Positions 2,177-37,940 of a DNA stretch of 38,497 nucleotides are shown one piece after another. Origin of the DNA: an uncultured marine group I thaumarchaeote (GTDB lineage Archaea > Thermoproteota > Nitrososphaeria > Nitrososphaerales > Nitrosopumilaceae); the NCBI GenBank assembly GCA_902578515.1, contig CACHDH010000003.1, positions 1-38,497 of the forward strand. The letters run 5' to 3'. The position numbers and the translations under genes were made by a program. Under the pieces are notes generated by a model that saw only the letters and a list, made by a program, of their open reading frames with translations, had not been told where the DNA came from and searched no databases. Position 1 is the first letter of the stretch; every line of letters begins with the position of its first letter.

Positions 2177-2243
2177 TCTTTGATCTTGGTTATTTCATAA
2201 TCACCCACCACTTCTTAAGCAGGACAAAAAAGCAAGTACAAAA

Positions 2244-3998
2244 TTGACATCTAAAGAAGCAACTCTCTTAGATTATAGCGAAGAGGGACGTGCTCTTCTA
2301 TCTCAGCAATCAAGCGCACCTCTTGAGGGATTTGCAACACATGCAGTTGATGCAAGCATTACCGAATTCATGAAGGATGCAAAAAATGAAGTTGAGAAAG
2401 GACATCTCTATCTCTTATGGCACTTGTTGTACGTTGAGGAGGTACTGGAGGACGTTGCAGAAAATGCAATAATTGATGGTGCATATGATTGTGGAATCGA
2501 TGCGTATTTGGTAGATACCTCGGAAAAAAGAATTAGATTATTCCAATCAAAGTATGGTGAAGCTCATTCTATCGGAGCGATTGACAAGTTCGTGAAGGAT
2601 GTAGATCGTTTCAAAAAACTAGAACAATCAAAGATTAGACGTGATGAGTTACAGTATCTTTGGAAGCATCTTCATGAGAAAAACGTGAAGACAGAGTTGG
2701 TTTACGTGACTGATAATGATGTAGACGAGTATGAAGATGGCGAAGTGAAAGTTGTAGGAAAGGAGCAAGTCTACCAAACACTATGGGAACGCATTAAGAA
2801 ACCAGCCAAGGGTGAAAAGTCCAGTTTAAGGATTCAAAAATGTCTTGAGCATGATAATGCGCTATGCTGTATTGTCTCTGCATTTGACTATGCAGATTTC
2901 GTAGAAAGGAATGAACATTATGTCTTTGAATCAAATATCAGAAAGCACCTTGGCGGAAAAGGGTCAATTAACAAAGGAATAACAAAAACTCTGGAAGAAG
3001 ACCCTCACAAATTCTTTGAATGGAATAATGGGATTACCATAACTGTAGATAATTATTCAATGAAAGATAACAAGATTAGCCTAGGTGGAGCGCAAATTGT
3101 CAACGGTGCGCAAACATCCAAAAGCATTCTTGATAGAAAGAAGAAGACAAATAATCTGGATGCGGAACTTTTGGTTACCATTATCAAAACCAAGGACGAG
3201 GAACATCAGAGAAATATCACAAAATTCAGAAATTCTCAGAATGCCATTAAAGGTAAAGACTATGTTTCACTAGAGGATTATCATATAGCAATACATTCTA
3301 TGTTACAAAGAGTAGGATATTTCTACGAACATCAACAGGGTTCCTGGCTTAACCTACCATCTTCCATGAAAGCTAAATTCAACGGTGATGAAATTTACAA
3401 CAAATACCTATCAGATAAAAAAGAAAAATGTAGAATTAAAGATGATACTGCGATTGCCTCAATGGTCTCATATTTTGAACAGAGGCCAAATGACGTGTAT
3501 GGTGGTATAGGGAAATATCTTCCCAAGGGTGCAAAATATGAAACTGTATTTGATGATGAACTGGAATGTGACTATCGTTACTTTCTATTCCCACACTTAA
3601 TTCGTGAGTATGCCAAAAATGAATTGGGATACGACAGAAGTAATACACAAAATAGATACAAGAAATATGCACAGAATCTTTTTGTTGCAGTTACTGCAAG
3701 AATTGTTCACAAAAACATTATAGGAAAAAATGATGATTTCAAGAAGGACATTTCTGAGTTAGAAAAGATGATTCAGAATATTGGATTGTTTACAAAAGTC
3801 CTAAAAACTGCAGATAAAATTGTAACAAAGTTTCTTGAAGATTCTAAGGTTGAAGAAAAGATAGATGAGGCTAACACTGCTCACAACTTTTTCTCAAACC
3901 AGGTTTATGGCAAATCCATGTTAGAAGTCATAGACTCAAAAATTAGGCAAGAACAGGAAGAGATAGAATACATCAAAAAAACATTTTCAGGAATTTAA
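2244..3998 (+). CDS. AIPR-family abortive infection protein with N-terminal nuclease-like domain
   Basis: The middle carries the AIPR (abortive infection phage resistance) pattern: FESNIRKHLG (228-237), FFEWNNGITI (257-266) and QIVNGAQT (284-291). The N-terminal part has a GIDAYLVD...LFQSKYG arrangement (D86, Q101, K103), which matches the D-x(n)-(E/Q)-x-K layout of PD-(D/E)XK nucleases of the Mrr type. The start is TTG; the 584-aa length suits the family. It stands alone directly behind tRNA-Cys. By family it is a single-gene phage defence; that the N-terminal fold cuts DNA is my inference. ORFs 3085..3273 and 3436..3672 are shadows. Confidence 0.82.
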   Translation: MTSKEATLLDYSEEGRALLSQQSSAPLEGFATHAVDASITEFMKDAKNEVEKGHLYLLWHLLYVEEVLEDVAENAIIDGAYDCGIDAYLVDTSEKRIRLFQSKYGEAHSIGAIDKFVKDVDRFKKLEQSKIRRDELQYLWKHLHEKNVKTELVYVTDNDVDEYEDGEVKVVGKEQVYQTLWERIKKPAKGEKSSLRIQKCLEHDNALCCIVSAFDYADFVERNEHYVFESNIRKHLGGKGSINKGITKTLEEDPHKFFEWNNGITITVDNYSMKDNKISLGGAQIVNGAQTSKSILDRKKKTNNLDAELLVTIIKTKDEEHQRNITKFRNSQNAIKGKDYVSLEDYHIAIHSMLQRVGYFYEHQQGSWLNLPSSMKAKFNGDEIYNKYLSDKKEKCRIKDDTAIASMVSYFEQRPNDVYGGIGKYLPKGAKYETVFDDELECDYRYFLFPHLIREYAKNELGYDRSNTQNRYKKYAQNLFVAVTARIVHKNIIGKNDDFKKDISELEKMIQNIGLFTKVLKTADKIVTKFLEDSKVEEKIDEANTAHNFFSNQVYGKSMLEVIDSKIRQEQEEIEYIKKTFSGI

Positions 3999-21127: not shown

Positions 21128-21895
21128 TTACACATATATGATATATTTTTGTTCGATTAATCTATCAATTATTTCATCAACGTCTTTTGCAATACTTCCT
21201 TTGTATTTGATACCCAACTCAAGATTTCGTTCTAGAGCACGACCAGTCAGATTTGCTGATGTTATCAAAATTTGATTAGAATCAACAACCCATGCTTTTG
21301 CATGAATTTTACCATTATACGTGTAAATTCTTGGAAATGCTATGATGTTTTTCCAATATTGCATAAAGTATTCTTTTATTGTCAATTTCTTCTTTTTCCC
21401 AACCCTTTTCTTTTTGTCTGCCTCATTAAAGATAATTCTAATTTTTACATTACGTTTTTTTGCTGCCGACATTAAAGATTCTATAATCTCTTCCACATTT
21501 TCTTCATCCCACAACCAATAACCAATTATTGTAATGGTTTTTTTCGCAGAGTTTACCATTTCGTGTATTACAGGTGCTGTATTGTCAGCCATTTCGTTAA
21601 AAATAGGGCCAGACCATACTAATCTAACATTTTTGGAAAACTTGTGTTGTTCTCGTTCAAGTTCTTTTAGCAATTCTAAATTCATTAAAAATGCTTCTAC
21701 ATCAGAAACCTTCTCGAGTATTTTCTTTACATAAGCAAATTCCTCTGATGTTAGCTTTAGTTTTGATTTAATTGTAAAAATATCATTTGGTTTTAAAATT
21801 TTCTTTTTTTCTAAGAGTAACTTTAAAGAATGTAATTTTTTGTCTGGGATATGTGTTAAAATATTTTCCAGATCAATTCTAGTTATTTTTTTCAA
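21128..21895 (-). CDS. drmC: DISARM phospholipase D-like protein DrmC
   Basis: A 255-aa PLD-superfamily protein with one HKD motif: KIHAKAWVVDSNQILITSANLTG (about residues 195-217), followed by NLELGIKYKG. The N-terminal half is a helical domain. Family members act as nucleases or as non-catalytic partners; in characterised DISARM drmC is dispensable in some systems. It begins 2 nt after drmB and ends the operon. The single HKD implies dimerisation to form the active site. A standalone PLD nuclease is the alternative, but linkage to drmAB decides the name. Confidence 0.82.
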   Translation of the reverse strand: MKKITRIDLENILTHIPDKKLHSLKLLLEKKKILKPNDIFTIKSKLKLTSEEFAYVKKILEKVSDVEAFLMNLELLKELEREQHKFSKNVRLVWSGPIFNEMADNTAPVIHEMVNSAKKTITIIGYWLWDEENVEEIIESLMSAAKKRNVKIRIIFNEADKKKRVGKKKKLTIKEYFMQYWKNIIAFPRIYTYNGKIHAKAWVVDSNQILITSANLTGRALERNLELGIKYKGSIAKDVDEIIDRLIEQKYIIYV

Positions 21896-21897
21896 CT

Positions 21898-23823
21898 TTA
21901 CTCAGAAACTATTTTTTTAAAAAATCCACATTCTATGTTATTAATAGTCCATCTATCAAGTAAATTATTAAAATTTTCACAACTTGTTTCTGGTAATAAG
22001 GTGCAAGAATAACAACTAGAACCACCCATATTACTAGTTATGATTCCTGCCTTCTTAATTTTCTCTGGATTATTTTCAAAACACATAGGATCACGTGAAC
22101 ATCTGGTTGATTGTTTTATAGAATCTTTGAGTATCTTCAAAAATCGTTTTCCCTCACCAATTCTTACTAATCCACCCAAACTTCCTTGCGAAGAAACACT
22201 AGATGTATACAACATTACACCATTAGTGTTTTTTGAATGGTATATTCTCTCTTGTATATCCCCTTCATGGTATCCAGATCCCATTGAAAGTTGACGTACG
22301 AGTAAATGGGATAACGTATGTAACAAAACATAACGTGGATGAGAAAATGTATCTATAATATATTCACTTTTAGATCTTTTTTGTTTTTCCACTGATGTGA
22401 TATAGTTTTCACGCAAGCCCTCAAATCTTTCTTTTACTTTCTTTTGTTCTTCCCATTCTCTTAATTTTTTCTCGTTTAAACTAAAGAAAATTCCTTCTCC
22501 ATTGTTTTGTACTCCTGGTAACCATGTGATAGGAACAGTATTTCCAGTGGGATCTTTTCGTGAACCTGGAGATATTGGTCGAAACTTCTCATTTTTCTTC
22601 GAAAATTCCTCTGGTGCAAATGGATCTGGTGGTTTTCCCCTCGTAAATCCTCGCAAAACCTTGATTTCTGTAATTCGATTAAGTTTTTTCAAAAAGTCAA
22701 AATATTCTATAAGATCACCTTCCAGAGAAACTGGTTCAACATCAATTCTCGGATCATCAATACTCGGTTTAATCAATCTAGTTTTGATATTTTTAAGATC
22801 TGCAAATTCAACGTCAAGAACATTTTTTAAATCAGCTGTTTCATCGGGAATTTGTTCGTATCGTAATTCTAGTTCTTTTTTTATTTCATCAGCAGAAAAC
22901 TCTTCAAGAAGTTTTCCAAACACTGTAGGTTTTAATGAGTTGATTATTTCGTCAAAGCTTTGGCCATTTTCTCTTAATACTCTAACTGCAGTATCTGATT
23001 GCCCCTGTTTATCTTGTAATGCATCATGTACAGGATGAATCCAACTTGGAATTGATAATGCACTTGAGACAGATGGATAATAAATAGAAGATGCTCTTGT
23101 CTGAACGCCATACGGTGTTTCACTGCAATTTTTCTCCTGAGATTTTCCTGATTGTCCTAACCATGGTTGTTTAGCATAACAAGTATTGAATCCTAAATCA
23201 CGTCCTAATACTTTTTTATCTGTAGCTCCTGCGCAAGAAGCAATGGCATTACAATGTAAACACCTTACTTTGTAGTCACCCAAACCTGAACTCTTCCCTG
23301 ATGATCTGAAAGTTAATTTTTCGCTCTCTTTAGATTCCTTACAACCACCCTTATTTTTTTTATCATGTTTATGTGCCCATCTATTCCAAGGAAAATCATC
23401 TATGTGTCCATTATCACAAATTTGCACAAATCTTGCATGATAAAGATGCTGCTGCCCACTCTTTCCCCATGAACAAAATCTGCAGTAAAATCCACCGCCC
23501 TTATTTGTTGATTCTTTGGAATGCTTTTGTAGTCTGTTACATGCTGGATTGGGGCATACACCATATTGTGGAAATGAAATACATGGAACTGCAGCATCTC
23601 CTTTTATCGTCATTGGCATCTTAAAGAAAGTTACATGAAGAAGATTTTGTAAATATGGATGGTTGATCTCCTGGAAATATTTTTTATCATCTGTGTTTTC
23701 CTGCCATTTGTGTAATCCCATTAGCATTATTGCATCATGTTCCATGTTTATGATAGAACCTGGACCAAATGTTGTAATAATTTGACTTGGGCGTAATTTT
23801 CCTGGCTCAACCATTATCATCAC
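21898..23823 (-). CDS. drmB: DISARM protein DrmB (DUF1998)
   Basis: A 641-aa protein beginning LRPSQIITTFGPGSIINMEHDA, as DrmB does. A Cys-rich region with CPNPAC, YCRFC and CDNGHIDDFPWNRWAH fits the family's zinc-binding block. The C-terminal DUF1998 part carries CSRDPMCFENN and GGSSCYSCTLLPETSCENFNNLLDR. DrmB forms a complex with DrmA that loads on phage DNA ends and is opened by 5' overhangs. Its start overlaps drmA by 17 nt, so the two are tightly coupled. ORFs 22040..22294, 22502..23038 and 23373..23624 are shadows. Confidence 0.9.
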   Translation of the reverse strand: MMIMVEPGKLRPSQIITTFGPGSIINMEHDAIMLMGLHKWQENTDDKKYFQEINHPYLQNLLHVTFFKMPMTIKGDAAVPCISFPQYGVCPNPACNRLQKHSKESTNKGGGFYCRFCSWGKSGQQHLYHARFVQICDNGHIDDFPWNRWAHKHDKKNKGGCKESKESEKLTFRSSGKSSGLGDYKVRCLHCNAIASCAGATDKKVLGRDLGFNTCYAKQPWLGQSGKSQEKNCSETPYGVQTRASSIYYPSVSSALSIPSWIHPVHDALQDKQGQSDTAVRVLRENGQSFDEIINSLKPTVFGKLLEEFSADEIKKELELRYEQIPDETADLKNVLDVEFADLKNIKTRLIKPSIDDPRIDVEPVSLEGDLIEYFDFLKKLNRITEIKVLRGFTRGKPPDPFAPEEFSKKNEKFRPISPGSRKDPTGNTVPITWLPGVQNNGEGIFFSLNEKKLREWEEQKKVKERFEGLRENYITSVEKQKRSKSEYIIDTFSHPRYVLLHTLSHLLVRQLSMGSGYHEGDIQERIYHSKNTNGVMLYTSSVSSQGSLGGLVRIGEGKRFLKILKDSIKQSTRCSRDPMCFENNPEKIKKAGIITSNMGGSSCYSCTLLPETSCENFNNLLDRWTINNIECGFFKKIVSE

Positions 23824-26800
23824 CGCTTACGCCATAATCTTTGATATAGTATGTAGATACTTCTGATTCTGCTTCTCTTAATGACTCTGGTATAACAAAT
23901 CCCTGCGGATTATAATCTCTAGAACTGTTAAGTAGATAAACTTCATCTTTGGGTGCATCACGTCGTTGATACATTGGTCGTCTGTATTTCAATTTGATTG
24001 TTCCATTATGATGTTTAGTTGATAAGCTATCCCATCTGTTTACAAAACTATCTAGCTGTTTCTCTGTTTCTTGTTTTTCTGATGGATCCAAAAGTTCTAC
24101 TCTTGCTAAAATTTTTGCCTTAATATCATCAACAAGTTTAGAAACATCAGGATCTTTACGATGAAACCGTTCTGGATTCTTAGCGAGAAGGCAACTTTCT
24201 AGTCTTATCAATGCGACAAATACTCCAAATAGTCCTCGATCTCTTGCTCTTGCTGAGAATGGAGTAAGTGTTCCTGGTTCAACTTCTTTATGAAACGTTG
24301 TATGGAAGTGTAAGAAATTTTCAAAATATGATAAATCTCTTGATTTGGTATAAGTGTAGTTAGTAACCACAAGACCAGGGTACTTTCTGCCAACTCTTCC
24401 TGTAGCTTGAATATATTCAGATGTAGAACCTGGTTGCCCATTAACTAAAAGTACAGATAATCTATCGATATCCACTCCCACTGATAACATGTTAGTACAT
24501 AGTAAAGCATCTATCGCTTCATTCTTACTGTCTAATTTTTTTCCAACTGCTTCCAAAGTTTTTGGAACATCGAAATGACTAATTCTGCCAGTAAGTTCCT
24601 TTACTGTAAGATTTGTATCTTGTTTTGGTTTTGTTTTTTCATATGTATTGATAATAGTTTTAATAAAATCAGGTATAGAGTCATCATACATTCGTACGGA
24701 AGCGCCCAAATTTTTGATAGTGTTATAATATTCAACTAAAGTATAGTAGGGATCAAGATCATCATCGGAAAACGAATAATCTTTACCTTCAAAATTATAT
24801 TTTGATTTCATTTCTCTAATTTGTCTGATTTTTCTTAATACGGTGGCAGCTATTCTTGCATCAATAGTATAACCACCAACAGAAGTAGCACAAATTCCTG
24901 CGTAAATTTTTCCTGGGTTCTTAGGACTCACAGGTAAAATTTCTGCAAAGAATGAATCTCCGAATCTGTATCCTTGTGATGGAAAAATCTTTGTTTCATT
25001 CTTGGCAAACAAGTGACTAATTTGATCAGCTGATTTTTTTGTTGTAGCTGTTGATGCAATTATTTTTGGTCCAATACCATCTTGCTCACATAGTGCAGAG
25101 ATTGCAGTCTCATATAATCCAGTTAAAGTTCCCAGTGGGCCAGAAATAAGATGTAATTCATCTTGTATGATCAAATCTGATTTATCTATTCCTTGTGGGA
25201 GGGGGATTGTTTCAAATGGTGATCTTGTTCCATCCTTCCAACCAACTGCATTATGATTACAACCTCTCGCGTTTCCAGGTCTAAATGCATCCTGTGCACA
25301 GTATTGGTTAACGTTACCAAATAATGATGAATATCTGTAATTCCAAGAAATTTGTGCAAATTTATCTACGGTAGAAATCAGCAATGAGGGGCAAAAATTT
25401 CTTATGTCATCATCAATGAAAATGACCGGTAGATATCTATCATTATCACCAGGTTTACCGAAGAAACAATCCTTATGACACTTTATTCTAATTCGTTTAG
25501 GTCTAAAGTCTTCTGGATTAGTCTCAGATGGTTTTTGCTCCTCAAATTTGTAATTATGAGCGTCCAGTTTTCTACCACAAGAAGGGCAGCTCAAAAGTAT
25601 TACAGGATTTTCTGATTCGTATACTGTACCTTTTCGCATCCATTCAATTCTCTCTGCCGCTGCAGCAAAATCATTAGGAGTGGTAGCTCTTCCTACCCAT
25701 AAACCAACAAAAAATGGCGAATTGCCAAACTTTTTGCGGTTTTCTTTCTTCCTCAGTCGAATACGTTCACATGCACACATTAATGCTGACGCACGTTGGA
25801 ATTGTTGTAAAGTAAGTAATCTGTATGTATAACGCATAATTACTGTGATCCCATATCGGGCAAATTCTTCTTCAAATGTTTTAGCGTCTTTTTTTAGTAA
25901 ACGACGCAATGCCATCGTAAATGCAATAATGCCAAAATAAGCTTCAGTTTTTCCACCACCAGTAGGAAACCACAATAAATCAACCGTCTTTCTATCCAAT
26001 GACTTTGGGTTGTAAATTGATTCGATGTTTAGTAGAATGAATGCTAATTGAAAAAGTCGCCAAGATGGTCTATCTTTAGGATTATCAGTCTCAGGTTCAT
26101 CTCTTAGAACTTTACCGCCACGTTCCCGATTTTCTTGTGCCCATTGACTGTAAATTCTTTGTAAATACATTGCTTCATTTGCAAAGCGAAATGCTTCTGC
26201 AGCATCAGCGTTCTCAGAAATTATTTGAATTCCATTACTAATTCTTTGTTTTGCGTCTAGACAATTATCAATTTGATGTTGTGGAATATCAAAATCATCA
26301 ACAAAAATTGGATCTACATTTTTTTTATCTTTTGTTAAGTCATTAATCCAATCAGAATACTTTTCCACAAGCGGTTCAAGGATCTCTTTATACTTACTAG
26401 AATCTTGGACTTCGTATAAAATCCTCATATCCAATAATTTTTTAATTTCTTCTGTTGGTTCCCTAGGCTTTATTTCTGGCACAGTGTAAGTTGGGAAGAA
26501 TGTAGTTCTAACCCATGATCTTTTGTTATCTTTATCATCTTGATCCCAATCCACAGAACAATTATGACCCTGTGCAAAATTATGTTCATCTTTAAACAAA
26601 AATGTGGTGATTCTATCTTCTGGATCATCAGGGAGACTATCTTTTTCAATTTTAGTAAAGTTAAGAAAGATCTTTTCTGAATTTGGAGATGACAACTCCA
26701 TTTCTGGATGAAAAATACAATCGAAATCCTGAGTAAATTCCCCTTCTACAGTTTCTTTTTCATTTGTGAGAAATATACTAAGTGATGTTTTATCATCCAG

Positions 26801-27373
26801 TAATTTGATTTGATATTTTACATAACAATCATCTTTTATTTTGAGTGAGGAAAACTCTTCATCTGTATCGACTAATTCTATAGATTTTGTTTCATTGGTT
26901 TCTTCTCTTATCCATTTTTCATATCTTTCTCTGCCTGTCTTGGTTTCTTGTTGTTTTGGTTCTTCCTTTTTCTTTTTTGTATTAGAATTATTTTCTACTT
27001 TATCATCTTTTTTTTTATCATCTGTACCATGATAAATTCCGTATTTGATTTTAATATCAATTGATTTTGTACCTGGTAAAAGATAACATGTTAATCCCAT
27101 CGAACTTGGCTTAGTATCAAACTTTAGTGCAGTTTTATCAGCACTATCATCATTCTCATCATTCTCGTTTGAAGAAGTTTGAATATCACCTTCAACTATA
27201 TCATCACTTTCATCCAATGGTGTTCGCTTTGGATACAAAACACCACTAAAGTAGCGGCTTTGTGGTCGTTCAAAATCAACAAATTCCTCCTCTTTTTCAC
27301 GTGGACCAATAGAATCCTTCTTTATAGCATCGATGAGAATTTCTCGTAATTTGAGTGTGTTTTCCTTATTCAA
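23807..27373 (-). CDS. drmA: DISARM helicase DrmA
   Basis: A 1188-aa SF2 helicase, the largest gene here. The N-terminal 450 residues are charged and include a low-complexity KKDDK/KKKKEE stretch. Walker A is FPTGGGKTEAYFG (about 470); the DExH box reads IIQDELHLI (about 735); STATTKK and the C-terminal IQATGRVGRKYPG (about 990) follow. A CPSCGR...CHKDC zinc pair is near 595-640. The closing FHTTFHKEVEPGTLTPFSARARDRG block is typical of DrmA. The TTG start is supported by a TATA box 29 nt upstream. With DrmB it forms the DISARM core. ORFs 24208..24441 and 26841..27032 are shadows. Confidence 0.9.
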   Translation of the reverse strand: MNKENTLKLREILIDAIKKDSIGPREKEEEFVDFERPQSRYFSGVLYPKRTPLDESDDIVEGDIQTSSNENDENDDSADKTALKFDTKPSSMGLTCYLLPGTKSIDIKIKYGIYHGTDDKKKDDKVENNSNTKKKKEEPKQQETKTGRERYEKWIREETNETKSIELVDTDEEFSSLKIKDDCYVKYQIKLLDDKTSLSIFLTNEKETVEGEFTQDFDCIFHPEMELSSPNSEKIFLNFTKIEKDSLPDDPEDRITTFLFKDEHNFAQGHNCSVDWDQDDKDNKRSWVRTTFFPTYTVPEIKPREPTEEIKKLLDMRILYEVQDSSKYKEILEPLVEKYSDWINDLTKDKKNVDPIFVDDFDIPQHQIDNCLDAKQRISNGIQIISENADAAEAFRFANEAMYLQRIYSQWAQENRERGGKVLRDEPETDNPKDRPSWRLFQLAFILLNIESIYNPKSLDRKTVDLLWFPTGGGKTEAYFGIIAFTMALRRLLKKDAKTFEEEFARYGITVIMRYTYRLLTLQQFQRASALMCACERIRLRKKENRKKFGNSPFFVGLWVGRATTPNDFAAAAERIEWMRKGTVYESENPVILLSCPSCGRKLDAHNYKFEEQKPSETNPEDFRPKRIRIKCHKDCFFGKPGDNDRYLPVIFIDDDIRNFCPSLLISTVDKFAQISWNYRYSSLFGNVNQYCAQDAFRPGNARGCNHNAVGWKDGTRSPFETIPLPQGIDKSDLIIQDELHLISGPLGTLTGLYETAISALCEQDGIGPKIIASTATTKKSADQISHLFAKNETKIFPSQGYRFGDSFFAEILPVSPKNPGKIYAGICATSVGGYTIDARIAATVLRKIRQIREMKSKYNFEGKDYSFSDDDLDPYYTLVEYYNTIKNLGASVRMYDDSIPDFIKTIINTYEKTKPKQDTNLTVKELTGRISHFDVPKTLEAVGKKLDSKNEAIDALLCTNMLSVGVDIDRLSVLLVNGQPGSTSEYIQATGRVGRKYPGLVVTNYTYTKSRDLSYFENFLHFHTTFHKEVEPGTLTPFSARARDRGLFGVFVALIRLESCLLAKNPERFHRKDPDVSKLVDDIKAKILARVELLDPSEKQETEKQLDSFVNRWDSLSTKHHNGTIKLKYRRPMYQRRDAPKDEVYLLNSSRDYNPQGFVIPESLREAESEVSTYYIKDYGVSGDDNG

Positions 27374-27397
27374 GAGATCATTGAAGATGATTTAGAA

Positions 27398-27406
27398 CTG
27401 TATAAG
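27398..27406 (-). promoter_or_regulatory. TATA box of drmA
   Basis: On the minus strand CTTATACAG is centred 29 nt ahead of the TTG start, the spacing seen at other short-leader promoters here. drmABC can therefore be transcribed independently of the methyltransferase gene. Confidence 0.5.
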
Positions 27407-27425
27407 ATTTTAGCTTATTTTCAAA

Positions 27426-28364
27426 TTAAAAGTGTAATTTTTTATTTTTCACTTTGATATTTTCTGGTAACTTCCAAATCACATGAAGATTTTTTGTGTG
27501 AACATAATCATCCCATAATTTTGTAATATCATCAGCTTGTCGTAAACTTTCTAATCTTTTTTCAATAAGAGAGACATTATCATTATCAAGTTCAATTCCA
27601 ACTGATTGGCGCTGAAGTTGTTTTGCAACTACAAGTGTAGTACCAGTTCCTGCAAAAGGATCAAAAACCAGATCGTTTACTTTAGTTGAAGATAGAATTA
27701 TTCTTGTCAAAAGAGCTACTGGTGATTGCTGTTTGTGTGCTCTCTCCGCAACACGTACCGTAAAATCTCCTTTATTACATTTTTTACACTTAGGGAATGT
27801 TTGTTCTCCAATTTTTCTATAAGGTTCATGGCCAGCAAAATATCCTGCAGTAAGCTCCCGTATATCATCCCAAACATCAGTTAGCATCATACCATTTTTT
27901 CTGCGGTATCCTAATTCGGAATGACTCTTAGCATAGGGAGGATCAATTCGTAGTTTATTGAATACGTGAGGTTTATCACCTTTAGTTGCATATGCTATAA
28001 TCTGATAATGTTTTGCATACCTAGTTCTACCTGGAACAGCAGCAGATTTTTTTCTCCAGATGATAAGATTTTGAAAAGTCCAGCCTGACTTTGATAATGC
28101 TTGTAATACAAAGCTGGTATTTTTCTCTCTTTGCATAAAGTAGATTGCCCCACCGTTGGCTGTTTTTTGATAAATTAATTTACAAACGCGTGTCAGCCAA
28201 TTCCAATAATCATCTTCAGACATGTTATCATCGTGACTGTTGTATTCTTTGCCCTGATTAAATGGAGGATCAAAGAATGTCAGATGTATTTTTTTTGAAA
28301 AATTACTTTTGAGGGTTTTTTCGCAATCATCTTTTATAATATCACAAAGAAGTTTGTTTTCCAA
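27426..28364 (-). CDS. Beta-class DNA methyltransferase (N6-adenine or N4-cytosine)
   Basis: A 312-aa amino-methyltransferase with the catalytic motif DPPF at residues 32-35 and the SAM-binding motif VFDPFAGTGTTLVVAKQL near 231-248. Catalytic-first order marks the beta class. The DPPF motif favours adenine-N6, but N4-cytosine is not excluded. A CKKCNKGDF zinc-like pair lies between the motifs. Classical DISARM uses a much larger adenine methylase (DrmMI) or a cytosine-C5 methylase (DrmMII); neither fits. The likely job is marking host DNA so DISARM spares it. It starts 10 nt after the upstream PLD gene. Confidence 0.85.
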   Translation of the reverse strand: MENKLLCDIIKDDCEKTLKSNFSKKIHLTFFDPPFNQGKEYNSHDDNMSEDDYWNWLTRVCKLIYQKTANGGAIYFMQREKNTSFVLQALSKSGWTFQNLIIWRKKSAAVPGRTRYAKHYQIIAYATKGDKPHVFNKLRIDPPYAKSHSELGYRRKNGMMLTDVWDDIRELTAGYFAGHEPYRKIGEQTFPKCKKCNKGDFTVRVAERAHKQQSPVALLTRIILSSTKVNDLVFDPFAGTGTTLVVAKQLQRQSVGIELDNDNVSLIEKRLESLRQADDITKLWDDYVHTKNLHVIWKLPENIKVKNKKLHF

Positions 28365-28374
28365 TTTTAATCAT

Positions 28375-29661
28375 CTAAACTTTCTTTGCCTGCCTTATAA
28401 TTTTCTCTAAATATTTTCTGTAAATCTTGGCGTCATCTTCGATCTTTTCTCTTATTATATGCTCTAACGTAGATTCATCAATTTTCATATCAGCGTTTTT
28501 CAAGTCCTTCATCACATTCTTCTTTTCCTTTTCCATAAGTAAATCGATGAATGATCTACTGTCTTTGAATTCAGATTCGTACTGTTTTTTGGCCTCATCT
28601 ATTATGGTTTTATCTGAGACGACCGTAATTGTTTCAGTATTTGCCCTCCACTTATCAAGCGTTTTAGAATTTCGAATTCCTAAACCTATTTTATTTATAT
28701 TAACAGAACTTACTACAACTCGTTTATTTGTAATAACCAATTTTCCATGAATATTTTTTTTTGGAATACCTACATCTATCCCTAATGAGATCATATTTTG
28801 AAAAATTGAATTAGTTCTGGATTGAAAATCTGCACTAATTCCTGAACTGAGTAATTTTATTTCCTTGCCTTTTTGCTTTTGATTAATAAGAAACTTACCA
28901 AAATCATCATCAGTTAGTGTCTCTGAGGAAATAAATGCAAAATTGGATTCCTCAATTATTTTTTCTAGGTAACTTCTAGCTCTGCAATCAAATGGTGATA
29001 TGTACAATCCATCATTAATGGTAGAAGGTTCTTGACAAATTTCACCTGGATAATCCCGTACCCAATGTTCGCGTAATTCTTTATTTTTTACCCTTTCTTC
29101 AGGCTTTAATAAAATTGGAATTTTTTCCTTAGGATATTTTTTAGCATTTTCAATTAATGAACTAATCTTATTACTAGGATCTGAGAAATTTTCAATCAAC
29201 CAATCAAATTTCTTATTATATAACTGGATTTGCCTATCATTTTTTTCGAAAATTAATAATGCATCTAATTCATCTTCATCAAGAAAATTTGCAGATAGTG
29301 TGATTGCAGATTTTTCCGTTACAGCAAATTTTCCGTGAAAAGAAAACCAAGAATCTGGATATACATTTGTGCTTGTTCTAAGTGGAGAACCAACATTCCA
29401 CCAACAAAGGTAGATTTTGGCACCAAGTTTCTCTATTTTTTCAAAGTTCTTCCTAACACTTTCAAAGATTTTTGGTTTTACACTTTCATGTGGCAGTGTA
29501 AAAACTTCAATTTTTACACCTTGTTCGAGTTTTCTCTCTAGTAATTCAAAAACATCATCTCGATGAATTTGAAACATAGCAATCCTGATGTATTTCTCAG
29601 CTCTTTCCAACTCACTGAGAACATTATCAACAATTTTTGTACTATACTCGAATCTAATCAA
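28375..29661 (-). CDS. Two-HKD phospholipase D-superfamily protein
   Basis: A 428-aa protein with two PLD repeats. The first motif is SFHGKFAVTEKSAITLSANF (H109, K111); the second is NIHGKLVITNKRVVVSSVN (about 304-322). Two HKD motifs in one chain suggest an intramolecular active site as in PLD-type nucleases. The C-terminal 80 residues are charged and helical. It differs from DrmC, which has one motif, so the island holds two distinct PLD proteins. It overlaps the MBL gene by 4 nt and precedes the methyltransferase by 10 nt, so it belongs to the same operon. Phosphodiester substrate unknown. Confidence 0.8.
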   Translation of the reverse strand: MIRFEYSTKIVDNVLSELERAEKYIRIAMFQIHRDDVFELLERKLEQGVKIEVFTLPHESVKPKIFESVRKNFEKIEKLGAKIYLCWWNVGSPLRTSTNVYPDSWFSFHGKFAVTEKSAITLSANFLDEDELDALLIFEKNDRQIQLYNKKFDWLIENFSDPSNKISSLIENAKKYPKEKIPILLKPEERVKNKELREHWVRDYPGEICQEPSTINDGLYISPFDCRARSYLEKIIEESNFAFISSETLTDDDFGKFLINQKQKGKEIKLLSSGISADFQSRTNSIFQNMISLGIDVGIPKKNIHGKLVITNKRVVVSSVNINKIGLGIRNSKTLDKWRANTETITVVSDKTIIDEAKKQYESEFKDSRSFIDLLMEKEKKNVMKDLKNADMKIDESTLEHIIREKIEDDAKIYRKYLEKIIRQAKKV

Positions 29662-31043
29662 TTAAGATCGTATTTTTTTCCTATCTCTACTGTTGTAATC
29701 TTATCTGTAACTTTCTTGTATGCATCTGGATTTTCTGTATGAATTGGATAAAGCATCTTGGCATCTATTCCTTTTACAATCTCAAGTAGGTCATTTCCCT
29801 TAGAATGGCCAGAACAATGGCTTTGAATTCTGTTTAATCCAAAGTGGTCTAGCCACATATTGACTCGTTTCTGGTCAAAAACTCCTTCATCATTGAATGG
29901 CTCACTAAGAGAATGAAGATAGAGAGCTCCAGGAGTTGGCTTTATGTCAATCAGTGCACCAAAATGCCAAAATGAAAATGCACATAATGACCTGTTTTGC
30001 CGCTTTACGATGTCTTCGGCTGTTGTAATGTTGGAGCCAGTTAGATATTCCTTCTCAAATTTTTTCCAAGATGATTTTTTTGGTGCAAAAATTTCAATAT
30101 TTTCATCATCAGGCTTTGGTACATTTAGCTGTGGATCCTTTGAAAGATATTCTAGATATGCCGCATCCTTAACATCAACTACGAACTTTCTGTCATTTTC
30201 TTTTGCAATGTTGTAAAATGTTCGAAGCCTATCCATATCTTTGAAATTAAAATCAGCAATTGCAAGCTTGTCTGATTTTGAGACATGTTCATTGCACTCA
30301 CTGTAAACTTTAGCCTCAGACTCGTCAGTTTCTAGATCATCAATTCTGGTCCCTTCTGCTAAGAGAGCGATTGGTTTTACCTCAATTGCTTTTTTGACAA
30401 AATCTTCTGTCATTTTTGGATTAGTACCATGTAGCCGAATGTCACCGGTGTAAACTACAGGACCAGACGATGTGTATATGATAAATCCATATGCACCTGG
30501 GACGGAATGATCAACATGAATTGGTTCCACTTCTAATGAACCAATTTTGAACTTGTCACCGGTTCGGAATGTGTTAATGTCTCTGTCAATCGGCTCTGCC
30601 TTTTTGTCATGCCTTGGCTTGAAGGATAAAATCTCCCGCTCAAAAGTTCTAGATGATCTACGCTCAATTGCCTCTAAGATTAGTTTGCAAGTTTCGCCCA
30701 TGTAGACAGGAATGTCTTCGTGTAGAAATGAGATGTAATCAGCATGATCAGCATGTGCATGGGTTAACAATACAGCGTCAATGTCAGTTTCTGTGTCTGT
30801 TCTTTCCATCATTTGTAAAAGGTCTGTTCGGTAAACTCCTTGCAGGTCGGGAAGTAAGCCCATCTCGAAAAAATCTTTCATACCAGTGCTTAACCTCGGA
30901 CTCATAAACTCGTCAAAATATGCACCTCTTTGAGAAAAGCTCTTACCAAAATCTAAGAAAACCTTGGTATCCTTGTCTTCTAGTAGGATTTTGTTTCCTC
31001 CAATTTCATTTACACCACCATAGAAAGTTAAACTAGTCATCAA
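29658..31043 (-). CDS. MBL-fold, RNase J-like metallohydrolase
   Basis: A 461-aa metallo-beta-lactamase-fold protein. GGVNEIGGNKILLED...FLDFG opens the fold, the metal motif HAHADH is at 95-100, further ligands lie in VDHSVPGAYGF and VVYTGDIRLHG, and the end SGHSKGNDL...YPIHTENP matches RNase J/beta-CASP-type proteins. Such enzymes cut RNA or DNA as exo- or endonucleases. The first in-frame TTG (31043) is followed by an ATG (31040), which I favour. It overlaps the two-HKD gene by 4 nt. Codon use is more core-like than the rest of the island, so it may be a host gene recruited into the operon. Confidence 0.78.
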   Translation of the reverse strand: MMTSLTFYGGVNEIGGNKILLEDKDTKVFLDFGKSFSQRGAYFDEFMSPRLSTGMKDFFEMGLLPDLQGVYRTDLLQMMERTDTETDIDAVLLTHAHADHADYISFLHEDIPVYMGETCKLILEAIERRSSRTFEREILSFKPRHDKKAEPIDRDINTFRTGDKFKIGSLEVEPIHVDHSVPGAYGFIIYTSSGPVVYTGDIRLHGTNPKMTEDFVKKAIEVKPIALLAEGTRIDDLETDESEAKVYSECNEHVSKSDKLAIADFNFKDMDRLRTFYNIAKENDRKFVVDVKDAAYLEYLSKDPQLNVPKPDDENIEIFAPKKSSWKKFEKEYLTGSNITTAEDIVKRQNRSLCAFSFWHFGALIDIKPTPGALYLHSLSEPFNDEGVFDQKRVNMWLDHFGLNRIQSHCSGHSKGNDLLEIVKGIDAKMLYPIHTENPDAYKKVTDKITTVEIGKKYDLN

Positions 31044-31152: not shown

Positions 31153-31443
31153 ATGGAAAAAGAAAACAACTCGAAGATTGACAAACTTGAAAAATGTGTC
31201 ATACGACAATCACAGGAAATCAGGAAACTAAAGAAAAAACCAGAAAGAAGGATGACGGAAATGAAGTTTGTCGGTGTAATATTTGATCCAGAAAAATACA
31301 AAAACGGCGAGAACGAAATCAACAATGCATTAGCCAATGGCTTTGAAGTCTTACGTGACTTTGAGACAGGTGGTGGAATTGTAATAGCACTTGGAAAATG
31401 GGTGAAAAAAGACGAGAAGGTGAAGAATGGATGGACCAAATAA
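31153..31443 (+). CDS. Small coiled-coil protein, first gene behind operator copy 1
   Basis: A 96-aa protein. Residues 1-30 are a charged coiled-coil (IDKLEKCVIRQSQEIRKLKKK), and the rest is a compact alpha/beta unit: TEMKFVGVIFDPEKYKNGENEINNALANGFEVLRDFETGGGIVIALGKWVKKD. The C-terminal layout of strand, helix, strand, strand resembles small ligand- or protein-binding domains, but I cannot name the family. The coiled-coil suggests dimerisation. The ATG lies about 31 nt behind the TATA box, and the stop overlaps the next gene by 13 nt. Confidence 0.7.
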   Translation: MEKENNSKIDKLEKCVIRQSQEIRKLKKKPERRMTEMKFVGVIFDPEKYKNGENEINNALANGFEVLRDFETGGGIVIALGKWVKKDEKVKNGWTK

Positions 31444-31688
31444 AAAATGTCTCTATAGATTCAAGGAAAAAGTCTCTAATAGAAACAACCCTCGATATTT
31501 TTTTAGGATTTGTAATGTTTCTACCAGTAAATTACTTTATTCTTCCATTATTTGCAGAAATGATAGCAGAACATAGCATTTTGGCTGCAATTCAGATAGG
31601 TATGATATTTTCTGGAATCTCACTTGTTCGTAAATTCGCTATTAGACGTTGGTTTGAAAGAATGAGAGAGGAAGTTACAAAAGTTTAA
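31431..31688 (+). CDS. Two-pass membrane protein, DUF7220-like
   Basis: I prefer the ATG at 31431 (MDQIKNVSIDSRKKSLIETT) to the longer frame, because the extra residues only mirror the upstream gene in another frame. The product of about 85 aa has two membrane segments, TTLDIFLGFVMFLPVNYFILPLF and AAIQIGMIFSGISLVRKFAI, and ends RRWFERM. SLIET...FPLF...FTxISxxRxxxxRRxF is the pattern I remember for a phage/mobile-element family (DUF7220), so this is a possible hallmark of mobility. It is coupled to the preceding gene. Confidence 0.65.
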   Translation: MDQIKNVSIDSRKKSLIETTLDIFLGFVMFLPVNYFILPLFAEMIAEHSILAAIQIGMIFSGISLVRKFAIRRWFERMREEVTKV

Positions 31689-32431
31689 AGTAAAAATTCA
31701 GAGGCATAGTTTCCATCGTCGGTTAGCTTTAACCATCTGTTTCTTCCTATCTTTTCAACCTCAACAAATCCCCACGTATCTACCAGCGGTTGTACAATAT
31801 TCTTGTCCAGACTTGCAAAGCGTGCCTGAGTAAAGTTCTGTTTCCTTGCATTAACAATTATAATCTTACTCTTCTCGGCCTCCTCGGCCATCTGCTTTTT
31901 CTGAATGCGGCCGCCTGCATTTTTTATTATCCTTATAGCATCTATCAGTTCAGGTTTTGGTGTTCCAATTCTATATGTAGGAAGTGGATGTATCTCGGCC
32001 ACCCCATATGTTTGCTGTAAAGTTCCATCATATTCAGGATATTTTTCTGCCTGTGCGTAAAATGGATGTATTTTTTCCCTGTCATCAAACATCATGCAGG
32101 CCATCATACATCCTATGGAATGAATCTTGGAACCACTTGCAACGTTAATGTAGATCTCATTTTTTCTCTCCTTGATAATTATCTCTGTGACAACTTTGAT
32201 AATTGGAAAAAGTCTAAGCCTATTGGCATAGGCGATCTCAGTCTTGATTCCATTTTTTTCCAGCTGCTTTACAATATTTTCCCGATATTTTACTGCCTTG
32301 TCTTCAGAAACATTATCATGTGCAATCAGCCAAACCTTGTCTGCTTTTTGCTCAGTTGCAGGAATTATTATTCTGTCAATCTCAAAACCGACAGGGGCTA
32401 TATGGATACGGAGGTTTACCATGTTCTTCAT
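31685..32431 (-). CDS. CARF-type winged-helix regulator (DUF6293/HFX_2341-like)
   Basis: The N-terminal 140 residues have NLRIHIAPVGFEIDRIIIPATEQKADKVWLI and EIYINVASGSKIHSIGCMMA, matching the DUF6293 (HFX_2341) family whose ligand domain is CARF-like. The last 80 residues form a winged helix (IRIIKNAGGRIQKKQMAEEAEKSK...GRNRWLKLTDDGNYASE). CARF domains sense cyclic oligonucleotides or other nucleotides; no cyclase is in the window. I start it at the ATG at 32431 (ATG 32422 is the alternative), because the longer frame reads through operator copy 2. The block 13-24 nt upstream implies autoregulation. Confidence 0.72.
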   Translation of the reverse strand: MKNMVNLRIHIAPVGFEIDRIIIPATEQKADKVWLIAHDNVSEDKAVKYRENIVKQLEKNGIKTEIAYANRLRLFPIIKVVTEIIIKERKNEIYINVASGSKIHSIGCMMACMMFDDREKIHPFYAQAEKYPEYDGTLQQTYGVAEIHPLPTYRIGTPKPELIDAIRIIKNAGGRIQKKQMAEEAEKSKIIIVNARKQNFTQARFASLDKNIVQPLVDTWGFVEVEKIGRNRWLKLTDDGNYASEFLL

Positions 32432-32434
32432 AAT

Positions 32435-32474
32435 AGTATCTATAGTATCCATACTATGGCTTTGATATTTAATA
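32435..32474. promoter_or_regulatory. Operator/promoter block, copy 2 (between divergent genes)
   Basis: Same 40-bp architecture as copy 1: near-palindrome AGTATCCATACT (32444-32455) and GATATTTAATA (32464-32474) at 20-nt spacing. The TATA centre is 29 nt before the plus-strand ATG at 32498. The block lies just upstream of the CARF-HTH start on the minus strand, so one site may control both genes. Confidence 0.8.
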
Positions 32475-32497
32475 ATTTTCATACATTATTCTTTTAG

Positions 32498-32806
32498 ATG
32501 GCAGTTAGCAATTGGATTCTCTACATTGGGGTTTTTCTCTGCGCCACAGGATTTGGCGTAGTAATTGGTGCAATTTTCATTTTTTATTGGGGTATCAAGA
32601 AATTAGAAGAGGCCAAGCAAGGTAATTCTTACACTGAAAACTATACTGAAAATCACTTTACAGCTAACATAGATCACTACCACGCAGGTGATGATGGTTC
32701 CGATACTGATGATTGGCGTAAATCTGCAACACCCATACATGGTGCTGTTGGTGAAGACGTTCCAAGAGAATATCTCTCAAAAGATACACGGGAGGAAAAT
32801 CGATGA
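32498..32806 (+). CDS. Single-pass membrane protein with acidic cytosolic or external tail
   Basis: A 102-aa protein. One strong membrane helix, WILYIGVFLCATGFGVVIGAIFIFYWGI, is followed by a short basic-acidic stretch and a 65-residue polar tail: an imperfect tandem YTENYTENHFTANIDHYHAG and DDGSDTDDWRK. No signal-peptidase site is obvious; an N-out anchor is likely. It is controlled by operator copy 2. Its stop overlaps, as ATGA, an ORF that runs through copy 3. Family not recognised. Confidence 0.65.
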   Translation: MAVSNWILYIGVFLCATGFGVVIGAIFIFYWGIKKLEEAKQGNSYTENYTENHFTANIDHYHAGDDGSDTDDWRKSATPIHGAVGEDVPREYLSKDTREENR

Positions 32807-32928
32807 AGTGGACAAACAGTATCTATAGTATGCATACTATAGATATGATATTTAATAATTCTAGTTCTATTATAGTAGACATGAATTCAAAAAAAATAGA
32901 GAAAGAAAAACTGGTGGATTGTAGATGA
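32803..32928 (+). CDS. Possible 41-aa ORF reading through operator copy 3, or its 15-aa 3' part
   Basis: An in-frame ORF from the ATG at 32803 (ATGA overlap with the previous stop) runs through the operator palindrome as SIYSMHTIDMIFNN and ends MNSKKIEKEKLVDCR. The ATG at 32881 sits 29 nt behind the copy 3 TATA box, the spacing of the other two units, so the promoter would start a 15-codon leader peptide. The stop overlaps the next gene as ATGA. Either form would couple translation to the operon. Function unknown. Confidence 0.4.
   Translation: MKWTNSIYSMHTIDMIFNNSSSIIVDMNSKKIEKEKLVDCR
32818..32857 (+). promoter_or_regulatory. Operator/promoter block, copy 3 (24-bp perfect palindrome)
   Basis: Same block as copies 1 and 2, with AGTATGCATACT at 32827-32838 and GATATTTAATA at 32847-32857, again 20 nt apart. 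Here the symmetry extends to a perfect 24-bp palindrome, 32821-32844, starting ATCTATAGTATG. It precedes the long chain of overlapping small genes. Confidence 0.82.
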
Positions 32929-33344
32929 GTACCTGCACAGTTTGCCAGAAAGATAGCAAGAAACACAGTCAAAAACTGTGGGAATTGCACAAGCAGGTAA
33001 CAATATGCGAGTTTTGCTTCAAATCAAGCAGTACCCATACAGAAGAACTTTGGGATATGCATCGAAGAACTGTAGAGACCGCTAAGAGCAAAACAAGACA
33101 CAAGAAGTTATGGACTATGCAAGTTGGCTTTGGGCCAAAATGTCCGGCATTGCTTGACAATAACTTCAGCTACAACAGCAAGTTGAACATGGCTGAATGG
33201 CTGACACCAGTCTATATGTCATGTACTGACTGTGGACTTTTCCTCGGTAGCATTGAGACAGACCATGCAGATATGCTGGGTGGAATGTGTCTGAAATGTT
33301 TCATGAAAGCGACGGATCTAACAGGTTGGGGGTATGGTGAATGA
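32925..33344 (+). CDS. Cys-rich zinc protein with three HxxxLWxxH-like repeats
   Basis: A 139-aa protein. Three imperfect repeats are visible: KHSQKLWELHKQ, THTEELWDMHRR and RHKKLWTMQVG. They are interleaved with CxxC pairs (CTVC, CEFC), and a second Cys module (CTDCG...CLKC) follows near residues 105-130. It probably binds two or more zinc ions. No enzyme motif or family is recognised; a nucleic-acid or protein-binding role is a guess. It overlaps both neighbours as ATGA. Confidence 0.7.
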   Translation: MSTCTVCQKDSKKHSQKLWELHKQVTICEFCFKSSSTHTEELWDMHRRTVETAKSKTRHKKLWTMQVGFGPKCPALLDNNFSYNSKLNMAEWLTPVYMSCTDCGLFLGSIETDHADMLGGMCLKCFMKATDLTGWGYGE

Positions 33345-35625: not shown

Positions 35626-36600
35626 TTGTTAGATGCAATTAAAGAAAATCCTTACTATTCACCCAGAATTAGGATGGCAATTGTTATGGCTAAAAGACTG
35701 AAGAGGGATGAACTTTTTGTAAAAGATTTAGAAAGTAAGCTTACTGTGGCAATAAGCGAAGAGCGCAAACAAAGTGAGGAAGAAAATAAAGAAAAATTTG
35801 AAGAATATCAAAAACAACAAGAAGAACGTAAACGAAAGCGTGAGATTGAAGAGGAAGAAGAAGAAAGAGAAAGAAAGGAACGTAAACGAAAGCGTGAGAT
35901 TGAAGAGGTAGAACGAAATGAAAATGCTCAGAAATCATCCATAAAAAAAAATTGGGATTTATTCTTTATTACTCATATAGATAATCTACCCCACATTACA
36001 AAAGATGGAATAGTGGCACCAAAAATTAGACCGAAATATTACAAAAAAATTGCTGACGAAAAATTAGCTAGCATCCGTAATGATAAAATTATTGCAAATA
36101 GTAGATTAGCAGCAGAATATGCTCATGTCTACTTTAGACCAGATAATGCAATGTTAACTGCTGTATTAACTCGCAAAGGTTTTAGACTAAACGAAATTGT
36201 AATAATTAGAATTAAAATCGACATAACTGAACATGAACTATACATGACTGATCGAAATGCGTATTATTATGATAGTAATGATCCTCGCTTTATTCCTTCG
36301 AACAGATATATGGAAATTATTCCCAGGATTGAATCGATGATCAAAGAAGATGGTTGGAATCAGAGTTGTGATGAAGAAATGAAAAAGAAATTTATGGCCG
36401 AATGTCATATTCTCTATAAATTTCCACTAGACTCTTTGAAAGCTATTTGTATAGCTGATAAACAGTCGATTAAAAATAGAGGATATAATTTTGCAGAGTT
36501 TTATGATAATGTAAAGAGCAAGATAAGTAGAGGGTCAATATTAACAGAAGAAAATATTGAAGAACGTAGAGAATTTTTCTTTAAAGGTAGATATGGCTAA
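35626..36600 (+). CDS. darT: DarT-like DNA ADP-ribosyltransferase with N-terminal coiled-coil
   Basis: Residues 110-270 match the DarT (DUF4433) pattern: LFFITHIDNLPHITKDGIVAPK, VYFRPDNAMLTAV and FMAECHILY, where E259 fits the catalytic Glu. DarT transfers ADP-ribose from NAD to thymidine in ssDNA. Residues 45-100 are a very charged coiled-coil (RKRKREIEEEEEE) built from a 31-bp DNA repeat; classical DarT is about 210 aa and lacks it. The start is uncertain: TTG at 35626, but an in-frame extension from a rare ATT at 35593 reads TNSQQDRLNDLLDAIKENP. The ORF overlaps its antitoxin by 8 nt. Confidence 0.78.
   Translation: MLDAIKENPYYSPRIRMAIVMAKRLKRDELFVKDLESKLTVAISEERKQSEEENKEKFEEYQKQQEERKRKREIEEEEEERERKERKRKREIEEVERNENAQKSSIKKNWDLFFITHIDNLPHITKDGIVAPKIRPKYYKKIADEKLASIRNDKIIANSRLAAEYAHVYFRPDNAMLTAVLTRKGFRLNEIVIIRIKIDITEHELYMTDRNAYYYDSNDPRFIPSNRYMEIIPRIESMIKEDGWNQSCDEEMKKKFMAECHILYKFPLDSLKAICIADKQSIKNRGYNFAEFYDNVKSKISRGSILTEENIEERREFFFKGRYG
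35824..35908 (+). repeat. 31-bp direct repeat pair inside darT
   Basis: GAACGTAAACGAAAGCGTGA and the 11 following bases occur at 35824-35854 and again at 35878-35908, identical over 31 bp and exactly 54 bp apart, so loss or gain of a unit changes the protein by 18 codons in frame. Confidence 0.85.
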
Positions 36601-37141
36601 TTCACATATTTCCCTAGAAGATAGTAATATTTTCTTTACAAATCTTCAAACTATCATCATTACCGTAAACTGTGTAGGGATAATGGGTAAGGGTATAGCA
36701 CTTCAAGCAAAGGATCTTTTTCCTGACGCTTTTTTGTATTATAAAGATCTGTGTGATAAAGACAAAATGAATATGGGAACACCTGTTCTTTATGATAAAC
36801 CATCAAAGACTCTTCAGACTACTGATAAAGAATACAAAAAATTACTTCTCTTTCCAACAAAACAACATTGGAAAAAGCCTGGAGACATTGTTAGTATTGA
36901 AAAAGGATTACAATGGTTGGTAGATAATTATGAGAAGTGTGGAATAAAGTCACTTGCTACTCCAGCTCTTGGCTGTGGTAATGGTGGATTAAATTGGAAA
37001 GATATTGGACCTTTACTTTACAAATATCTTGGAATGATGAATATTCCTGTGGAGATATACTTGCCCAAACAAAGTATACCTGAAAAGTACCTTGCTGAGG
37101 AATTTTTACTAACTGAACCGCCTAAAATTACTGATTATTAG
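36593..37141 (+). CDS. darG: DarG-like macro-domain antitoxin, short form
   Basis: I start it at the ATG at 36593 (MANSHISLEDSN), which overlaps the darT stop by 8 nt. The macro domain is clear: ITVNCVGIMGKGIALQAK (residues 23-40), LLFPTKQHWKKPGDIVSIEKGLQWLVDNY and ALGCGNGGLNWKDIGPLLYKYL (about 122-143). DarG removes ADP-ribose from DNA. Full-length DarG has a second domain of about 180 residues that binds DarT directly; here only about 15 residues follow the macro domain. It should therefore rely on hydrolase activity alone, or bind DarT by other means. Confidence 0.8.
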   Translation: MANSHISLEDSNIFFTNLQTIIITVNCVGIMGKGIALQAKDLFPDAFLYYKDLCDKDKMNMGTPVLYDKPSKTLQTTDKEYKKLLLFPTKQHWKKPGDIVSIEKGLQWLVDNYEKCGIKSLATPALGCGNGGLNWKDIGPLLYKYLGMMNIPVEIYLPKQSIPEKYLAEEFLLTEPPKITDY

Positions 37142-37148
37142 GGCGTCA

Positions 37149-37940
37149 CTACCCAATCTTAATCTTGTATTTTTTTAAATCTTTTCTTAGCCGCCTTACA
37201 GAATTTCCAATGGTTTGAGGGTTCATCAAAGTAATCTCTGCAAGTTGTTTCTGTGTAATAGCATTGACATCACTTTCAGATACCAGATACAATGCTGCAG
37301 CAGCTATGCCAGTAGGATTTGAACCTGTCTCGGAACTAGGAATACGATTAAGAATTTTGATTGCTTTTCGTGAGAAAAACTCTGGCATGCTGGCCTTTGA
37401 GGCTACATATCGAACCTTTTTGTCAGCCTTGTCTAAAGGCAGACTAATCTTATGCAGTTTACAAATCTGATTAAAAATATCAATGAGTTTGTCTCTTTTG
37501 ACATTGGTTAATTCTGCAATAATGGTGGGTGACGAAGGTATTTCTTGTTCTCGGCATGCAATGTGAAGGCATGCAGCAACAAATGAGTTGGTATCTTTTC
37601 CTTTGAGTAGCTTTCTAGAATTCTTGAATAACTCCTCTGTTCTGGAGGAGATTATTTTTTGTGAGCTAACTTTTTCTGTATATACCTCTATCAATTTCTT
37701 CGCAATGACCAGTATTTTATCAAAACCTGCAAGAAATTTGGTATTTGGTGCTACCTTTTTGAATCCACTTCCCTGCTTTCCAACGGTTCCACCTAATCCA
37801 TAGTCACCTTTTTCAGCGGAATAACCAACTTCTGATGTGACCTTCTTCCATAATCCACATTTAGAGCAGGATTTTTCTCCAACAATATCGTAAACCCATT
37901 TATGATTTCCACCAACTTGGCAAGTGTCCTTTGAATCCAT
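37149..37940 (-). CDS. Divergent transcription initiation factor TFB
   Basis: A 263-aa TFIIB homologue with two cyclin repeats. Repeat 1 includes SRTEELFKNSRKLLKGKDTNSFVAACLHIACREQEIP; repeat 2 includes PTGIAAAALYLVSESDVNAITQKQLAEITLMNPQTIGNSVRRL, which holds the BRE/TATA-reading HTH. The N-terminal ribbon is altered: the second pair is CSKCG, but the first is CQVGGNH (Cys plus His), and the B-finger GPEWRAF pattern is absent. The protein is also shorter than the usual ~300 aa. Such variants may serve a subset of promoters. It is convergent with darG. Confidence 0.85.
   Translation of the reverse strand: MDSKDTCQVGGNHKWVYDIVGEKSCSKCGLWKKVTSEVGYSAEKGDYGLGGTVGKQGSGFKKVAPNTKFLAGFDKILVIAKKLIEVYTEKVSSQKIISSRTEELFKNSRKLLKGKDTNSFVAACLHIACREQEIPSSPTIIAELTNVKRDKLIDIFNQICKLHKISLPLDKADKKVRYVASKASMPEFFSRKAIKILNRIPSSETGSNPTGIAAAALYLVSESDVNAITQKQLAEITLMNPQTIGNSVRRLRKDLKKYKIKIG

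Follow-up and report, generated by a model that had tools for sequence, protein, structure and literature searches.

CARF (CRISPR-associated Rossmann fold) regulators are usually read as receivers of Cas10 signals. Csa3 proteins regulate cas genes and CRISPR leaders beside type III systems that make cyclic tetra-adenylate (cA4) (PMC8699464, PMC8844856), and MM_0565 of Methanosarcina mazei, which joins a CARF domain to a winged helix-turn-helix (wHTH), binds its own promoter and has targets beyond cas genes (PMC7465815). HFX_2341 (Crr) of Haloferax mediterranei likewise combines a DUF6293-type CARF domain with a wHTH and has no tie to type III CRISPR (PMC11434293). Here we analyse a CARF-wHTH protein encoded in 38,497 nucleotides of an uncultured marine group I thaumarchaeote of the Nitrosopumilaceae (contig CACHDH010000003.1 of assembly GCA_902578515.1; hereafter the window), which is contig C3 of a 690-kb draft genome that is 58% complete. 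The protein very probably binds a conserved operator that precedes both its own gene and neighbouring ones. We favour, with moderate confidence, the reading that it is a switch for a defence-island regulon, repressing its own gene, activating genes nearby and responding to a ligand that would not come from Cas10.

The regulator and its two domains map as follows:

31685-32431, minus strand: CARF-wHTH regulator of the CARF3 / HFX_2341-DUF6293 family, 248 aa (Pfam, PADLOC, AlphaFold2 model, Foldseek)
32039-32410, minus strand: CARF domain (residues 8-131), which carries the conserved motifs RxHxAPxGFExDR and NxxxGSK
31697-31984, minus strand: DUF6293_C winged helix, residues 150-245, with conserved helix FASLDKNI

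The initial annotation of a CARF-HTH protein was borne out by profile and fold. Pfam recognizes an N-terminal CARF Rossmann domain (HFX_2341_N, PF19810; E 8.6e-37, 126.7 bits against a cut-off of 30) and a C-terminal winged HTH (DUF6293_C, PF22665; E 9.1e-21, 74.6 bits against a cut-off of 27), and the PADLOC CARF3 model matches with an E value of 9.7e-71. Csa3_N reached 22.4 bits against its Pfam cut-off of 27. A PDB sequence search with the single protein gave no match. An AlphaFold2 monomer model built with 62 homologues (pLDDT 93.3, pTM 0.81) had CARF structures as its top Foldseek matches in the PDB (best E 7.6e-8), including the ring nuclease Sis0811, Csm6, Csa3, Can2, Card1 and Cam1; the Csa3 entries 2wte, 6wxq and 6w11, the latter two with cA4, matched across both domains. 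The two motifs, RxHxAPxGFExDR following strand 1 and NxxxGSK following strand 4, are near invariant across 62/62 sequences, the latter aligning to NITGGTK of Card1, and the ligand-pocket residues N96, G100, K102, R8, G15, E17 and R20 are invariant. A model without a CARF-type pocket would have refuted the initial annotation; these structural matches and near-invariant motifs speak against that, within the limits of a monomer model. The protein belongs to the CARF3/DUF6293 family, not to Csa3, and would work like regulators of the Csa3a/HFX_2341 type; its closest relatives are in Nitrosopumilaceae (Nitrosopumilus, Nitrosopelagicus and Marine Group I).

The operator, AGTATnCATACTnTnnATACT, has three copies in the window and none elsewhere in the draft genome:

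31088-31108, no strand: operator copy 1, upstream of a TATA box and the ATG at 31153 (plus strand)
32435-32455, no strand: operator copy 2, common to the CARF gene (minus strand) and a divergent 102-aa gene (plus strand)
32465-32475, no strand: TATA box ATATTTAATAA, which can be read on either strand, in the gap separating copy 2 from the divergent gene
32818-32838, no strand: operator copy 3, upstream of a TATA box and the ATG at 32881 (plus strand)

When up to three mismatches were allowed, the core palindrome matched 14 times in the window, where 1.5 matches were expected, and 0/100 shuffles reached 14. Copy 2 ends 3 nt before the CARF ATG, in keeping with the earlier placement of the gene between copies 1 and 2 with copy 2 directly upstream of its start. 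The claim that the gene has its own operator thus stood, but its extent to 32474 did not: the conserved start is the ATG at 32431, where homologues begin, rather than 32474/32482, and the longer open reading frame (ORF) reads through the operator sequence. The third copy, the mirror layout described below, the regulon kept in relatives and the nearby DISARM and DarTG genes go beyond the initial annotation.

Operator conservation follows the CARF gene. Among loci L078-L124, some of which are near-duplicates (for example, L116/L122 and L082/L083), the operator with at most three mismatches stands right before the CARF start codon in 39/46, compared with 0.05% of shuffled upstream regions, and in nearly all of those loci the distance from the operator end to the ATG is 0, -2 or -3. 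Thirty further operators, besides those at CARF promoters, were found in 687 kb of CARF neighbourhoods, against an expected 0.4. We surveyed 186 Nitrosopumilaceae genomes, a set made up of genomes at least 80% complete together with that of the window. The CARF gene is present in 90/186 (67/131 of the high-quality genomes) and the operator, with at most one mismatch, in 55/186, distributed as 45 of the 90 CARF genomes versus 10 of the 96 others (Fisher 2.6e-9); a reversed pattern gave 9 matches in the same 186 genomes versus 79 for the real one. Eight relatives lacking CARF were searched and the operator was not found.

The whole operator clade has one recognition-helix sequence in common, FASLDKNI, and the operator is absent upstream of Nitrososphaeraceae, methanogen and haloarchaeal homologues, whose helices differ (for example, YMSLNKN and YRLLDSH). 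Since clades with other helix sequences lack this operator, the comparison suggests that the regulator and its site changed together. Several haloarchaeal homologues are preceded by TGTCG-type repeats (L141, L142, L144-L147, L150 and L155), possibly a different operator within the same family.

The layout around the operator is equally regular. A TATA-like box lies ~9-18 nt from nearly every copy, with an ATG 41-42 nt away on the same side; start codons fall at +39 to +44 from the operator at 35/38 CARF-promoter sites and 27/30 other sites, where the background is about 11-13%. At CARF promoters the single TATA box also serves the CARF gene across the operator, producing a mirror arrangement in which the operator is downstream of the TATA box for the CARF gene and upstream of it for the targets. 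By a position rule for archaeal regulators, those that bind upstream of the TATA box are activators and those that bind downstream are repressors (PMC4158304). Because of the operator position under this rule, the CARF protein would repress its own gene and activate its partners.

What the pocket would bind is narrowed by searches for signal-making enzymes. The window contains no nucleotide cyclase, as the initial annotation had noted, and although this absence is weak evidence in a genome that is 58% complete, it holds in near-complete relatives. The genome search proposed there for Cas10 and other cyclases was extended to the family survey with four enzyme families: Cas10 palm2, mCpol, SMODS and diadenylate cyclase (DAC). 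In contrast to the setting of Csa3, Cas10 palm2 scored above the cut-off in 0/186 genomes, 90 of them CARF carriers; two weak matches of ~250 aa were seen, and the one opened (G032) is GTP cyclohydrolase III. For mCpol, weak matches occurred in 50/186 genomes and just over the cut-off in 3/186, with no enrichment with CARF, and none was convincing: the two that were opened both proved to be GTP cyclohydrolase III, encoded next to a RibB-like gene. In this context (L158, L162) GTP cyclohydrolase III scores as an mCpol/Cas10 palm and is a source of false positives in these archaea. SMODS matches, which would indicate a CBASS synthetase, appeared in 16 CARF genomes and were all below the cut-off, the example opened being a CCA-adding enzyme. 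DAC was found in 0/61 relatives, which speaks against cyclic di-AMP, the ligand proposed with the enzyme DacZ for HFX_2341 (PMC11434293). On present evidence, the regulator does not appear to be part of a cyclic oligoadenylate (cOA) module.

These observations can be assembled into a working mechanism. By analogy with Csa3 and MM_0565, the CARF-wHTH protein would be dimeric and would bind the AGTAT-GC-ATACT palindrome together with its third half-site. In front of the CARF gene, where the site lies between the TATA box and the start codon, the bound protein would block CARF transcription; at the divergent gene and two other operons, where it would sit upstream of the TATA box, it could recruit TBP/TFB and lead to activation. 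Infection or RNA damage would lead to the production or release of a ligand by a route other than Cas10, and this ligand, held in the CARF pocket, would shift the protein between states that set the output of the local small-gene set in the defence island.

Several points weigh against this mechanism. An upstream operator position is no proof of activation; cA4 left the specific DNA binding of purified Csa3a unchanged (PMC8844856, PMC8699464); a cyclase of a new type is possible; the defence role leans on the neighbourhood, because the target genes are without known function; and HFX_2341, the best-studied homologue, acts mainly as a repressor (PMC11434293). The last of these also speaks for a pure repressor of itself and its targets, whose site would block TFB or the TFB-recognition element (BRE) until a ligand released all of them. 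Only ~9 nt separate the end of the operator from the TATA box, placing the operator near the BRE, and repression is the mode of BrxR, a regulator with a WYL domain that is found at defence islands (PMC9122601). At the targets, however, the entire site precedes the TATA box, which is the activator position in archaea (PMC4158304), an arrangement kept in 24-27 of 30, and pure repression is in our judgement a genuine but doubtful option.

The predicted regulon of the autorepressing activator comprises small genes:

31153-31443, plus strand: 96-aa coiled-coil protein, target of copy 1
31398-31688, plus strand: DUF7220 membrane protein (PF23858, E 2.1e-15), second gene of the copy-1 operon
32498-32806, plus strand: 102-aa membrane protein of family N11, target of copy 2, with its ATG 42 nt from the operator
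32881-32928, plus strand: ORF of 15 codons that immediately follows copy 3 and overlaps the gene after it at ATGA
32925-33344, plus strand: 139-aa multi-CxxC zinc-ribbon-like protein of family N10, target of copy 3
Loci L086, L089-L091, L095, L097, L098, L104, L107 and L109-L112, divergent to CARF: microprotein

In L078, L079, L088 and L093, homologues of the coiled-coil protein likewise begin at most ~45 nt from an operator; the DUF7220 family occurs in 23/47 CARF loci, and family N10 also lies behind operators in L087 and L101; the model of the N10 protein (pLDDT 77) had no PDB match. The partner divergent from CARF on the shared operator varies among relatives. It is a PIN-domain protein at 11 loci (L082, L083, L100, L102, L106, L108, L113, L116, L118, L122 and L123), and at the loci listed above a 24-44-aa microprotein that has no annotation (consensus FFPRIIREFDDxDEPMxYG) and starts 41-42 nt from the CARF operator. 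The microprotein occurs in 48/186 genomes, 45 of which have CARF, and 40/53 of its matches are no more than 600 nt from the CARF gene on the same contig. The DISARM operon was considered as a direct target of copy 1 and rejected: its first gene, that of the metallo-beta-lactamase, starts ~47 nt off on the other side, but with no TATA box at the conserved place. Because copy 1 lacks the conserved TATA layout on the DISARM side, control of DISARM is not claimed.

The DISARM-like operon (21128-31043, minus strand) carries drmC, drmB and drmA (PADLOC E 1e-32, 2e-73 and 3e-226), together with a DNA methylase, a second phospholipase D protein and an RMMBL metallo-beta-lactamase. On the other side of the regulon, a DarT-like gene (E 8e-20) and a DarG macro-domain gene (E 6e-49) have overlapping reading frames (35626-37141, plus strand), followed by a TFB paralogue (37149-37940, minus strand); this family, N8, is near CARF in 9/47 loci and adjoins it in L030 and L033. 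At 2104-3998, beside tRNA-Cys, lies what we take to be an AIPR-like protein. The window has no type I cas genes, and a Cas1-family protein is absent from 52/90 CARF genomes. In relatives, CARF neighbours include McrBC and UvrD helicases, and a scan of 74 large neighbours, a listing with no random-locus control set, found a second DrmA, Gabija-like, type IIG and Hma-like genes. A regulon in such surroundings would plausibly serve defence.

The patchy spread of the CARF gene (90/186), its changing partners and the many tiny genes would also suit a mobile element's own control region rather than a defence switch, and DUF7220 matches a PHROG. Against this, IMG/VR and phage records hold no CARF relative, which speaks against a viral origin of the CARF gene; plasmid relatives among the matches listed are all haloarchaeal and 26-32% identical; and the neighbours include DISARM, McrBC, type IIG and Gabija-like genes. 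We consider it rather unlikely that the locus is such a control region.

The PIN-domain partner at 11 loci raises the question of whether the ligand could be an RNA end or tRNA fragment, with the PIN protein in the loop, since the CARF regulator RtcR is able to read tRNA fragments (PMC7790460). The window locus, though, has no PIN partner, the pocket motifs resemble those of cOA-binding CARFs, and the neighbour families examined include no recurrent RNA-repair gene, so we regard such a ligand as unlikely. That another factor binds the site, such as the TFB paralogue found near CARF in 9/47 loci and at 37149 in the window, is very unlikely: the site follows the CARF gene and the recognition-helix clade, and loci without a TFB gene nearby also have it at the CARF start. 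Least credible is a cOA ligand supplied from elsewhere in the cell, by either Cas10 or a CBASS enzyme. Although the CARF fold and NxxxGSK motif resemble those of cA4-binding CARFs, Cas10 (0/186), SMODS (0/16 over the cut-off) and DAC (0/61) were all wanting and the opened mCpol matches are GTP cyclohydrolase III.

We return to the autorepressing, locally activating switch. In an archaeal family of major standing in the ocean, about half of the genomes carry a CARF-HTH protein whose pocket motifs are conserved and whose operator is precise, and none tested carries Cas10; two questions become directly testable, namely the signal to which stand-alone CARF regulators of archaea respond and the way in which ammonia-oxidising archaea switch their defence islands. 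The regulon supplies conserved small proteins, including the microprotein beside CARF, as candidate effectors. A bolder proposal, which we put forward only tentatively, is a self-contained Nitrosopumilaceae signalling system in which the CARF-HTH protein would read a nucleotide or RNA-end signal of no known synthetase and turn on a lineage-swapped divergent effector (microprotein, PIN nuclease or membrane protein) via one fixed promoter cassette. If so, CARF signalling would work here by transcription and not by an allosteric nuclease.

Compared with known systems, the regulator shares the CARF-wHTH fold of Csa3a from Sulfolobales over its full length (Foldseek TM 0.53-0.63), and the CAPPa palindrome of Csa3a lies directly upstream of BRE/TATA (PMC8699464), the same place as the operator at the targets described here. 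MM_0565 differs in its link to a type I-B locus and in that no distinct motif was found for it (PMC7465815). HFX_2341 is a global, mostly vertically inherited haloarchaeal repressor with no operator known, whereas the operator and regulon of the window protein are local and clustered in cis. Like RtcR (PMC7790460), it would be a CARF-based transcription factor with a non-cOA ligand, but RtcR is bacterial, has a sigma-54 AAA+ architecture and serves an RNA-repair operon. The WYL regulators of the BrxR type (PMC9122601) are bacterial and carry WYL instead of CARF, yet they offer the same outline of an autoregulating defence-island switch that acts through inverted-repeat operators.
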